DNA from: Ignatzschineria rhizosphaerae
GTDB taxonomy: Bacteria > Pseudomonadota > Gammaproteobacteria > Cardiobacteriales > Wohlfahrtiimonadaceae
Reading direction: 5' to 3'
DNA length: 64,000 nucleotides
NCBI RefSeq assembly: GCF_022655595.1
Contig: NZ_CP093379.1
Location: 2,926,010-2,990,009 of the forward strand
Part shown: positions 31,359 through 35,120 of the stretch, one piece after another
How the letters are laid out: every line of letters begins with the position of its first letter
Numbering within the stretch: the first letter of the stretch is position 1
Translations under genes and position numbers: made by a program
The notes under the pieces: model-generated
Databases searched by the model: none
Told to the model about the DNA's origin: nothing
What the model saw: only the letters and a program-made list of their open reading frames with translations

Positions 31359-33551
31359 ATGGGAGAAGTAAGCTTAGATGTTGTAGAGGTGGCATTACCT
31401 TGCCCACTTCATAAGACTTTTGAGTATCTCGTTGATGATCAGTCTTTAGTTTTTCCCGGGATGCGTGTGGCGGTTGATTTTGCACGGCGAAAAATGGTGG
31501 GGGTTATTACTGCTGTTAAAGCAGAGAGTGAATTCCCGAGATCAAAATTGAAGCCTATTCGAGCATTATTAGATTCAGAACCGCTTTTATCTGAGGATCT
31601 ATTAACGTTAGCAAAATGGATATCATCTTATTATCATGCGCCTATCGGTGAGGTGTTACAGCTCTTTTTACCAGCCGCTTTAAGGCAAGGTAAAGCTTTT
31701 TATGAAGTAGAGTTTTTCTATCAGATTACTGAGGAAGGACTCCAATGGCGGATGGATGATGCTAACCGCCAAGCTCGTGCGAAAATCGCTATTCTTGAAT
31801 TTTTTAGCCAGCATCAGCAATATGCTGAGCATGAGTTATTAACAGAATTTTCTAATTTTAAAAATCATCGAAAAGAGCTTATAGACTGGGGGCTTTTACA
31901 GCGTATTGAGCAATTAGATAAGCGTAAATCCCCAGCAAAAATGCCATCACTAGAAAAGCCCTTAATATTAACAACAGCTCAGCAGACAGTTGTGGATGAG
32001 ATTATTCAGCAATCAGCAGGAATCTCTTTTATTGAAGGGGTGACGGGCTCTGGAAAAACAGCGGTGTATACTGAGATTGCTCGGGATTTTTTAGCGCGAG
32101 GAGAACAGGTATTAATGTTAGTGCCTGAAATCGGGCTGACACCACAGTTTGTATCAAGGATTGAAAAATCACTCAAGGTCCGAATTGGTGTGATTCACTC
32201 ACAGATTACAGAAAATGAGCGGCATCAAGCGTGGCGAGATGCGCTATTAGGCAGAGTTGATCTTATTATAGGCACAAGATCTGCTTTATTCACCCCTTTT
32301 GCCAGACTAGGGTTAATCATCTTAGATGAAGCGCATGATGGATCTTACATTCAGCGAGATGGTGTTCGTTATTCTGCTCACAATAGCGCCATTAAGCGTG
32401 CAGATTTAGAAGGAATTCCCTTAATTTTAGGCAGTGCCACACCCACTTATGAGAGTGTACGAAATATTAAGGAAGGAAGATTTAGTCATTATCAATTGCC
32501 CGCTAGAGTCAGTGGTGAGATGCCAGAATGGGAAATTATCAATTGTCATGAAGAGAAAGTCTATGATGGCATTGCGACAAAGGTGCTTGATGCAATAGAA
32601 ACAACAATAGCAAGAGATGAGCAAGTCCTTGTTTTCTTAAATCGAAGAGGATTTTCACCGGTTCTTACTTGTCTTGATTGTGGCTCGATGCTTGAGTGTG
32701 ATAATTGTAGTAGTTATCTTAATTATCATCGCACAACCGGTAAGCTTCATTGCCATCACTGTGCAACTCGCTATCCTTATCCTGAAAATTGCCAAAAGTG
32801 CGGTGGAAGCTCATTTAAAGAGCTAGGAGCTGGTACACAAAAGATAGAGAAAGTATTAGCAGATGCCTTCCCTCAAGCTAAAGTCCTTCGGTTTGATCGT
32901 GATAATGTCCGTAATAGCCATGATTTAGAGGCACATTTAGCGAAGATTGGCGATAATGAGGCAGATATCATCATTGGCACGCAAATGCTTGCTAAAGGGC
33001 ATGATTTTCCTAATATCACGTTAGTCGTATTGCTTAATAGTGATGGCTTATTTTTTGCCAATGATTTTCGAGCAGATGAAAAGTTAGCACAACTTTTAAT
33101 GCAAGTTTCAGGAAGGGCTGGGCGTGGAGAAAAGAAAGGGAAAGTTTTAGTACAAACGATGTTTGCAGATAATGCGCTCTTTCATGAGTTGCCGGCAATG
33201 GGCTATCATGCTTATGCTGAAAAAGCGTTAGAGATCCGAGAAATATTAGCACTTCCTCCTTACTCTAATCAGATTTTAGTTCAAGCTGAAGCAAGAAGCG
33301 AAGCAGAAGCTACACATTACCTTTCGGGGCTATTAGGGCTTCTTCCGGCAACTAAAGAGGTGGAGATTACCCCCGTGATGCCGAATAATTTGAAACGACG
33401 ACAAGGTTTTTATCGGGTCCATATTATTTTGCAATCTCAATCTCGTAGTGCATTACATCGCCTAGCACATCAACTGCGGCTACTTTATGAAGCGAATATT
33501 CGTAGCGGTATTCGTTTGTTGATTGAGGTGGATCCCATTGATTTTTCATAA
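31359..33551 (+). CDS. priA: Primosomal protein N' (replication restart helicase PriA)
   Basis: 730 residues, full length. PriA recognises abandoned forks and reloads the replisome. Order: N-terminal DNA-binding domain (~1-105), a winged-helix region (~120-190), helicase lobe 1 with Walker A Gly-Val-Thr-Gly-Ser-Gly-Lys-Thr (~227-234) and Asp-Glu-Ala-His (~321), and a zinc-binding insert with Cys-Leu-Asp-Cys, Cys-Asp-Asn-Cys, Cys-His-His-Cys and Cys-Gln-Lys-Cys (~440-490). Lobe 2 follows with Gly-Thr-Gln-Met-Leu-Ala-Lys-Gly-His-Asp-Phe and Gln-Val-Ser-Gly-Arg-Ala-Gly-Arg. Its 5' region is crowded with repeat copies that may alter expression. Confidence 0.97.
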   Translation: MGEVSLDVVEVALPCPLHKTFEYLVDDQSLVFPGMRVAVDFARRKMVGVITAVKAESEFPRSKLKPIRALLDSEPLLSEDLLTLAKWISSYYHAPIGEVLQLFLPAALRQGKAFYEVEFFYQITEEGLQWRMDDANRQARAKIAILEFFSQHQQYAEHELLTEFSNFKNHRKELIDWGLLQRIEQLDKRKSPAKMPSLEKPLILTTAQQTVVDEIIQQSAGISFIEGVTGSGKTAVYTEIARDFLARGEQVLMLVPEIGLTPQFVSRIEKSLKVRIGVIHSQITENERHQAWRDALLGRVDLIIGTRSALFTPFARLGLIILDEAHDGSYIQRDGVRYSAHNSAIKRADLEGIPLILGSATPTYESVRNIKEGRFSHYQLPARVSGEMPEWEIINCHEEKVYDGIATKVLDAIETTIARDEQVLVFLNRRGFSPVLTCLDCGSMLECDNCSSYLNYHRTTGKLHCHHCATRYPYPENCQKCGGSSFKELGAGTQKIEKVLADAFPQAKVLRFDRDNVRNSHDLEAHLAKIGDNEADIIIGTQMLAKGHDFPNITLVVLLNSDGLFFANDFRADEKLAQLLMQVSGRAGRGEKKGKVLVQTMFADNALFHELPAMGYHAYAEKALEIREILALPPYSNQILVQAEARSEAEATHYLSGLLGLLPATKEVEITPVMPNNLKRRQGFYRVHIILQSQSRSALHRLAHQLRLLYEANIRSGIRLLIEVDPIDFS

Positions 33552-33957: not shown

Positions 33958-34040
33958 AAAAAAAAGCCGAGATCTAAAAGACTCGGCAAAATAACCACCA
34001 AAGGAGGATATGGAGGAGAACGTCTGATTGCTCAAACGTC
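33958..34040 (-). ncRNA. Candidate small RNA with anti-Shine-Dalgarno motifs
   Basis: Predicted ~83-nt transcript on the minus strand, independent of any ORF. It starts a few bases after a consensus promoter (34047-34075). A 5' hairpin has 8-base arms ACGTTTGA and TCAGACGT (one G-U pair) closed by a GCAA tetraloop. A pyrimidine-rich stretch then carries UCCUCC twice (34017-34012 and 34008-34003), complementary to ribosome-binding sites; the second could pair weakly with GGUGG just after it. The 3' end is an intrinsic terminator, GCCGAG/CTCGGC with extra TCT/AGA pairs, followed by eight U (33965-33958). This layout is typical of Hfq-type trans-acting small RNAs. It lies between priA and fabI. 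Transcription is inferred, not shown. Confidence 0.72.
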
Positions 34041-34046
34041 ACGCAT

Positions 34047-34075
34047 ATAATAGGCTTTATGATTTACGATGTCAA
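34047..34075 (-). promoter_or_regulatory. Consensus sigma70 promoter of the candidate small RNA
   Basis: On the minus strand, TTGACA (34075-34070), exactly 17 bases, then TATTAT (34052-34047): a perfect -35 and a 5/6 -10 at optimal spacing, with the start expected near 34040. Confidence 0.8.
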
Positions 34076-34281: not shown

Positions 34282-34313
34282 AAAAATCCTGCAGGATTTC
34301 CTACAGGATTTTT
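34282..34313. terminator. Intrinsic terminator downstream of fabI
   Basis: AAAAATCCTG (34282-34291) and CAGGATTTTT (34304-34313) with a 12-base loop. It has T/A runs on both sides and lies 28 bases past the fabI stop on the minus strand. Confidence 0.85.
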
Positions 34314-34340: not shown

Positions 34341-35120
34341 TTACATTCCTGCGATAACCGTATTAAATCCGCCATCGACAAAGGTAATTTCTCCGGTAAC
34401 CCCTGATGCTAAATCTGAAGAGAGGAATGCAGCAACATTACCAACTTCTTCAATGGTCACGCAGCGGCCAATAGGTGCTGCTGCTTCAAATGCTGTTAAC
34501 ATGCTCTTAAATCCGGCAATTCCAGAAGCTGCTAGCGTACGGATTGGGCCTGCTGAGATTCCATTAACGCGGATGCCTTCATGACCAAGCGCTGCAGCCA
34601 TATAACGAACGTTAGCTTCAAGAGATGCTTTTGCTAAGCCCATTACGTTATAGTTTTGGACTGTACGCTCACTTGCAAGGTAGGTTAATGTTAAAAGTGA
34701 CGCACCTTCACGAAGATGCGGGCGAGCTGCTTTTGCAAATGCCGCAAAGCTATATGATGAGATATCGTGTGCGATCTGGAAATTTTCACGTGTTACTGAA
34801 TCTAAATAGTTGCCATCAAGCGCTTCTCTTGGCGCAAAACCTACTGAGTGGATAAGGATATCAAATCCATCAGTCCAAACACCTTTCAGAGAGTCCATTA
34901 ATGCATCGATTTCTGTATCACTTCCGGCGTCGCATGGAAATACGATAGTGGAGTCGAGCTCTGCTGCCATATCACGAACGCGGCCTTCAAGACGCTCTCC
35001 ATGAAAGCTAAATGCTAATTCTGCGCCTTGCTCACGCATTGCTTTTGCAATACCCCAAGCAATAGAGCGATTTGATGCAAGTCCAACGATCAGCGCGCGC
35101 TTACCTTTTAAAAATCCCAT
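34341..35120 (-). CDS. fabI: Enoyl-ACP reductase FabI (NADH type)
   Basis: 259 residues. Catalyses the last reduction of each fatty-acid elongation cycle and is the target of triclosan-like inhibitors. The N-terminal [12 protein letters not shown] (~13-24) is the FabI nucleotide-binding variant, Ser-Val-Gly-Phe-Ala-Pro lies near 91, and the active site Tyr-Asn-Val-Met-Gly-Leu-Ala-Lys (Tyr...Met...Lys) near 156. Monocistronic with its own terminator, away from the plsX-fabHD block. Divergent from comM. Confidence 0.97.

Follow-up and report, generated by a model that had tools for sequence, protein, structure and literature searches.

The window, that is, the whole stretch of 64,000 nucleotides of the Ignatzschineria rhizosphaerae genome analyzed in this study, contains a small RNA gene on its minus strand, located between priA and fabI. 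The gene is real and conserved, and its anatomy, its conservation, the pairing of its 5' hairpin and its relation to the Rfam family RF02278 were demonstrated by computation. Its product, a stand-alone RNA of approximately 83 nt, is likely to represent a trans-acting, Hfq-assisted anti-Shine-Dalgarno (anti-SD) repressor belonging to a divergent gammaproteobacterial branch of the RF02278/S17 kind. An anti-SD small RNA gene at this place had been proposed in a sequence-only reading of the window, and both its conservation and the covariation of its 5' hairpin now lend good support to the proposal.

Anatomy and neighborhood of the small RNA gene

The locus comprises the following features:

34341..35120, minus strand: fabI-like enoyl-ACP reductase gene (PF13561), upstream of the RNA on the same strand
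34282..34313, minus strand: terminator-like hairpin 3' of fabI (14 pairs, -19.4 kcal/mol for the folded stretch), followed by U
34047..34075, minus strand: sigma-70-type promoter, TTGACA (34075-34070), 17-base spacer, TATTAT (34052-34047); 11 of 12 matches
34019..34040, minus strand: 5' hairpin, nine pairs counting G-U, loop GCAA
33995..34018, minus strand: core CTCCTCCATATCCTCCTTTGGTGG (as RNA, CUCCUCCAUAUCCUCCUUUGGUGG), containing UCCUCC twice
34018-34012, minus strand: core site 1, CUCCUCC, in the 5' part of the core
34007-34001, minus strand: core site 2, CCUCCUU, in a predicted loop; stem CC.CCA / UGG.GG with a U-U mismatch
33966..33987, minus strand: terminator hairpin GCCGAG...CUCGGC, deduced from the fold and the family alignment
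33958..33965, minus strand: eight-U tract, putative 3' end
31359..33551, plus strand: priA (PF17764, PF18074), convergent neighbor

The CCUCCUU of the core is equivalent to the anti-SD end of 16S rRNA. Promoter, unit length, both UCCUCC motifs and the terminator with eight U were present in the sequence as the earlier reading had described them, and the hairpin with the GCAA loop was also found, with nine pairs (counting G-U) instead of the eight given before. Transcription would start near position 34040, yielding an RNA of approximately 83 nt that extends to 33958. Five other promoter-like sites, each with a score of 9, were detected within 2 kb, and the total of six represents no excess over the 5.7 found in shuffles. 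The RNA was predicted to fold with a minimum free energy (MFE) of -26.1 kcal/mol (z -4.3), a value equaled by none of 200 shuffles. A terminator scan of the 2 kb around the RNA did not list the terminator at 33966-33987.

Regarding coding potential, the earlier statement that the unit holds no open reading frame proved correct in substance, no minus-strand frame in the stretch tested being common to the order Cardiobacteriales and 11 of its 29 loci having no frame at all; taken literally, it did not hold, as short frames of 20-27 codons with GTG or TTG starts occur in seven of the 29 loci, the window included. The absence of a common short minus-strand frame speaks against a small protein gene. 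A plus-strand element, with AAAGGAGGATATGG serving as ribosome-binding site, would agree with the strong SD followed by ATG that can be read in Ignatzschineria, but this ATG is changed to ATA in L018-L029, and both the promoter and the U tract are oriented to the minus strand. Almost no credence can be given to either possibility.

The terminator-like hairpin 34282..34313 follows fabI and priA is convergent on the other side, so the RNA unit probably stands alone as a transcription unit separate from fabI. The fabI product shares 98% identity with its counterpart from an uncultured Ignatzschineria. Among five named Ignatzschineria records fetched by means of fabI, four (L031-L034) feature the RNA downstream of this gene, and in the fifth (L035) it was not found within the 6.8 kb of the record. 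Neighbor searches covered approximately 1.5 kb on each side of a locus, and less at contig ends. Within this range, eight of the nine loci of the genus have fabI upstream of the RNA and on its strand (L003 being the exception), as do the two loci L010 and L011 from one related genus; no upstream fabI match was obtained for the remaining 18 loci of the order. The linkage within and near the genus would suit a small RNA processed from the 3' untranslated region of the fabI mRNA, yet such an origin is exceedingly unlikely considering the terminator-like hairpin 3' of fabI, the RNA's own conserved promoter and the 18 order loci without upstream fabI.

In general, the genes flanking the RNA vary among lineages, and by eye the up- and downstream flanks appear unrelated across genera. 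In L012-L017, all from one related genus, the RNA is situated upstream of two ORFs of approximately 156 and 154 codons that, judged by eye from the L012 translations, are bacterioferritin-like.

Conservation and structure within the Cardiobacteriales

According to NCBI taxonomy, Ignatzschineria belongs to the Cardiobacteriales within the Gammaproteobacteria. A DNA search of 57 genomes identified, besides the window's own locus, 28 genomes with clear matches (L002-L029; E <= 3e-6), L002 being identical to L001 once trimmed. The covariance search of related genomes that had been suggested in the sequence-only reading was carried out with model R1, and of the 32 genomes from the order, 29 gave exactly one match; members of the order are among the R1 training sequences and match by construction. 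No R1 match was found in G010 (80% complete), G018 (100%) and G020 (91%). A promoter is present in all 29 loci, its best site scoring 9-12 of 12 and ending 22-31 bases before the core, and 27 of these sites score at least 10, compared to 2% of shuffled upstream stretches. A run of at least six T occurs in 29 of 29 loci, and across the 23 distinct sequences of the order the core is invariant except for one C/T position.

In its own genome (one contig of 3,074,733 bases), the RNA is a single-copy gene according to the R1 search. Candidates for a second copy were rejected: the next R1 matches (22.2, 19.7 and 16.1 bits) lack the core, as does a second RF02278 match (26 bits, L151). A separate candidate small RNA was noticed at L143 1500-1580 (C1:1627019-1627080 of the same genome, plus strand), consisting of a long hairpin CCATCTCCTAT...ATAGGAGATGG with the pyrimidine loop TTCTCCACCTTCT and a subsequent terminator; by eye, it follows a thiamine-pyrophosphate-enzyme-like ORF, and its similarity to Listeria LhrC is weak (43.7 bits; gathering score 110).

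Covariation was counted on alignment A3 only (11 rows, representing 11 distinct family sequences), because in alignment A1 the sequences L018-L029 have their 5' hairpin out of place. Pairing of this hairpin is complete (100%) in A3, with two-sided changes in five of its nine pairs, and 97% of the cells of the terminator hairpin are paired, with a two-sided change in one pair. The complete structure reached a covariation score of 0.309 versus 0.196 in shuffles (none of 500 as high), and a control with slid partners gave at most 0.097. At least as many two-sided pairs arose in seven of 500 shuffles, and further pair types were not above shuffles (13 versus 14.6).

The core helix is invariant in these 11 rows, which makes a covariation test of this helix impossible. 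Among 56 distinct sequences, the core hairpin CC.CCA/UGG.GG belongs to the MFE structure of 32, namely in 11 of 12 from the window's family, 0 of 12 from the rest of the order and 21 of 32 from the class. In the rest of the order, site 1 is open instead (12 of 12). In 44 of the 56 sequences, the second CCUCC (site 2) has an unpaired fraction of at least 70%. Alignment A2 was composed of 27 sequences hand-picked from these 56.

Relation to RF02278 and distribution beyond the order

No Rfam match at gathering score was obtained in the window. The best match was to RF02278 (Betaproteobacteria toxic small RNA), which covered the full length of the model with 31.9 bits (E 6.3e-5), below the gathering score of 50. 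The earlier remark that the RNA was not recognized as a named family is thus corrected, since it is a sub-threshold relative of RF02278. Five relatives scored 27.9-35.7 bits and L187 scored 36.3 bits, all likewise sub-threshold. None of the relatives' 39 loci scanned reached the gathering score, and as the current Rfam threshold misses all of them, RF02278 is probably under-annotated. Membership in Neisseria NmsRb (RF02877), Burkholderia ncS16 (RF02866) or mmgR (RF00519) was not supported, with 16.8-20.7 bits compared to gathering scores of 41-52.

The link between the window RNA and the RF02278 loci is firm. Loci L188-L191 pass RF02278 with 64.8-73.2 bits, and they are also recovered (35.9-41.5 bits) by R1, a model whose building set contained no sequence that passes RF02278. 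The core of L190 (73.2 bits), CTCCTCCACCTCCTCCTTTGGTGG, is identical to the window core in 22 of 24 bases; places with at most two mismatches are expected by chance approximately 6e-5 times in the own genome, a rough figure that assumes equal base use for a pyrimidine-rich core. The RF02278 core motif CUCCUCCA..UCCUCCU..GGUGG is present in the window RNA, and a double hairpin (CCUCC-loop hairpin, then terminator) is predicted for it, with a first helix that shows no variation in the 11 sequences of A3. Three members on Burkholderia/Paraburkholderia plasmids also pass RF02278 (69.3-73.1 bits); their core-hairpin sequence differs and still pairs. A beta-type pattern written from the Rfam consensus was found in none of 274 class genomes; it was too strict, because L188-L191 have different spacing. 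As a tested RF02278 feature fails, the window RNA is placed in the RF02278/S17 kind as a divergent variant and not as an RF02278 member in the present definition.

RF02278 comprises the Burkholderia double-hairpin RNAs ncS03, ncS05, ncS27 and ncS62. The window RNA shares with this family the full-length model match and, by prediction, the order of its parts (pyrimidine 5' site, CCUCC-loop hairpin, terminator). In contrast, its core hairpin is weaker, with a U-U mismatch in place of CCACC/GGUGG, it possesses an additional covarying 5' hairpin, its neighbors in the window are different, and it is present in a single copy, whereas three to five homologues are reported for Burkholderia. The sources on S17 and the double-hairpin RNAs are PMC11722255 (on S17), PMC5688073, PMC4603805, PMC7011215, PMC10987360 and PMC8780938; no paper on the window RNA was found in the open-licence literature. 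Common to the window RNA and to Bordetella pertussis S17/S17S, as described in PMC11722255, are SD-complementary single-stranded sites and a terminator end, and the near-invariant 27-nt stretch of S17 can be likened, by its description, to the window core. S17S is described as the RNase E product of a longer BvgA-dependent transcript, whereas in the window a promoter directly precedes the short form. The family is known mainly from Betaproteobacteria; outside this class, it is reported in Aeromonas salmonicida J223 (PMC8780938).

Within the class, the exact pattern CTCCTCCN{0,4}CCTCCTTTGGTGG was found in 53 of 369 genomes, the own genome included, under 29 family labels; the reversed-pattern control occurred in none of the 369. 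In an even sample of 398 genomes of the phylum, taken with stricter filters, seven matches including the own were obtained. The RNA family is scattered across many lineages, yet uncommon. The 29 class loci that were read correspond to L030 and 28 of L111-L140, L122 (= L001) and L134 (= L030) being omitted from the counts as repeats. Core invariance in these loci is given by construction, because the exact pattern retrieved them. Terminators of varying sequence follow the core, with a T tract in 27 of 29 loci, and 25 of 29 have a promoter within 120 bases that scores 9 of 12 or more (19% in shuffles), the score being 10 or more in 17 of 29 (3% in shuffles). Upstream of the core, many of the loci L111-L140 feature a common TTGACA-17-GAAAAT or ATATTAGAAnAT-like box, which may represent either a -10 region of unusual sequence or a site for a regulator. 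Three tandem core copies, each with a separate terminator-like hairpin, were observed in L120 (1500-1780), and two copies, one with an altered core base, in L118.

The gene pair rplM-rpsI is located downstream of the RNA in 18 of the 29 class loci, and coq7 upstream in four. Both neighborhoods recur among the loci discussed above, with rplM-rpsI downstream in L190 and L191, coq7 upstream in L189 and both in L187; Bordetella S17 also adjoins coq7 according to PMC11722255, a neighborhood common to some class relatives of the window RNA. The place upstream of rplM-rpsI would be compatible with a cis-acting leader or attenuator, all the more as rplM starts on the same strand 149-396 bases past the first core base in these 18 loci and as an intrinsic terminator usually lies in between (T tract in 27 of 29). 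Such a role is nevertheless very unlikely: the next gene downstream in the window is the convergent priA, the flanking genes are variable, and rplM, rpsI and coq7 are missing both from the 64-kb window and from approximately 1.5 kb around all 29 order loci. Trans action, as proposed in the sequence-only reading, is favored, because no close same-strand gene lies downstream in the window, the flanks differ and S17 acts in trans (PMC11722255).

As a lineage marker, the 23S rRNA position BET42a/GAM42a was located in 9 of 55 genomes. The gamma letter was found in the own genome and in seven carriers outside the order, and the beta letter in G019, which belongs to the order and thereby renders the marker imperfect. 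For the genomes of L188-L191, the beta letter was detected in two of four, and the site was not found in the other two. A mobile-element origin was considered and rejected, the RNA of L030 having no plasmid match and the window RNA no phage match. The exact 22-mer did not occur in viral contigs, and a short query made up of the core and the linker returned four plasmid matches, all of them weak and partial. A further scenario, which we consider rather unlikely, is that the 16S 3' end was copied in a common ancestor of beta- and gammaproteobacteria, that this copy came to lie beside the L13-S9 ribosomal protein operon, and that the RNA descends from it. It would be a general brake on translation from strong SDs, adjusted to the supply of ribosomes, and in the Cardiobacteriales it would have changed its place with hardly a letter altered.

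Proposed action on translation

In the proposed mechanism, the sigma-70 promoter would start and the intrinsic terminator would end a stand-alone RNA of approximately 83 nt, whose core would present two pyrimidine anti-SD copies, one 5' and one in a small hairpin loop. With the help of Hfq, this RNA would pair with strong SDs of several mRNAs and thereby keep ribosomes off. Such pairing would be the obvious mode of action and corresponds to what has been published for S17. By descent, the RNA would belong to the RF02278, double-hairpin or S17 kind, as a gammaproteobacterial branch that has diverged. The window RNA is probably a translational repressor, and we infer that it is transcribed, that it uses Hfq and that it represses several targets in trans. 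An hfq gene was identified in the own genome (PF17209, 102.5 bits); Hfq dependence is plausible on the basis of this gene and by analogy to S17, which is described as Hfq-enhanced (PMC11722255).

In the same paper, Bordetella S17 is described as a trans-acting, direct repressor of BP2158, and repression of its target was tested by mutations in both S17 and the target. Upon deletion of S17S, 91 genes rise, 70 of which have matches to single-stranded regions of S17S, and solute binders are among the S17 targets listed there (PMC11722255). Burkholderia members cloned in E. coli inhibit growth according to PMC4603805 and PMC5688073; S17S was not similarly toxic (PMC11722255). For ncS27, taken here to be identical with bdhR1, a role in balancing the metabolic shut-down under nutrient deprivation is described in PMC10987360. 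A role of the window RNA in slowing metabolism might be envisaged by analogy only.

Target prediction, also suggested in the sequence-only reading, was performed for 382 genes out of 464 kb and yielded nothing above permuted cores. Core duplexes of -16 kcal/mol or lower were predicted for the start regions of 102 of the 382 genes, compared to 31 for upstream and 46 for coding regions; ten shuffled cores gave 66-111 start regions at this threshold, one of the ten being equal to or better than the real core. The ranking by duplex energy permits many bulges and was not used to name targets. At least eight contiguous complementary bases were found in 10 of 382 genes, compared to a mean of 14.8 for permuted cores in which the CCUCC blocks were kept. 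The longest complement, 11 nt, lies at the start of a gene for a PotF-like polyamine-binding protein (L205 16296-17394), the product of which scores 294 bits against the NCBIfam PotF model (cut-off 636). This target is a lead only, because 27 of 100 permuted cores reach at least 11 nt. The sequence AAAGGAGGATA occurs 24 times in nine genomes, nine occurrences being the RNA gene itself. Of the other 15 sites, the one in L169 stands before a 447-codon TTG frame, and no other frame of more than 30 codons was found within 14 bases of the remaining ones.

The fixed letters outside the anti-SD blocks are not accounted for by simple SD pairing. Both this fixation within the order (UUUGGUGG), which goes beyond the needs of varied SDs, and the fact that no single target stands out would fit a decoy or sponge, in which the mimic of the 16S 3' end binds a protein or RNA (Hfq, S1 or a G-rich sponge RNA) without repressing mRNAs. 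However, its role as second strand of the core hairpin can account for GGUGG (32 of 56 sequences have this hairpin in their MFE structure), and the relative S17 represses its target directly, as tested by mutations in both partners (PMC11722255). A decoy is accordingly regarded as improbable, and repression of several mRNAs in trans is retained as the preferred function.

Sequences of small RNAs are usually conserved between close species only, as stated in PMC4603805. Here, a whole order shares a core of 22-24 bases, the class form of which recurs without change under 29 family labels. The RNA of I. rhizosphaerae, encoded once in a small genome and preceded by its own promoter, offers a simple setting in which an anti-SD RNA may be studied against the whole translatome.
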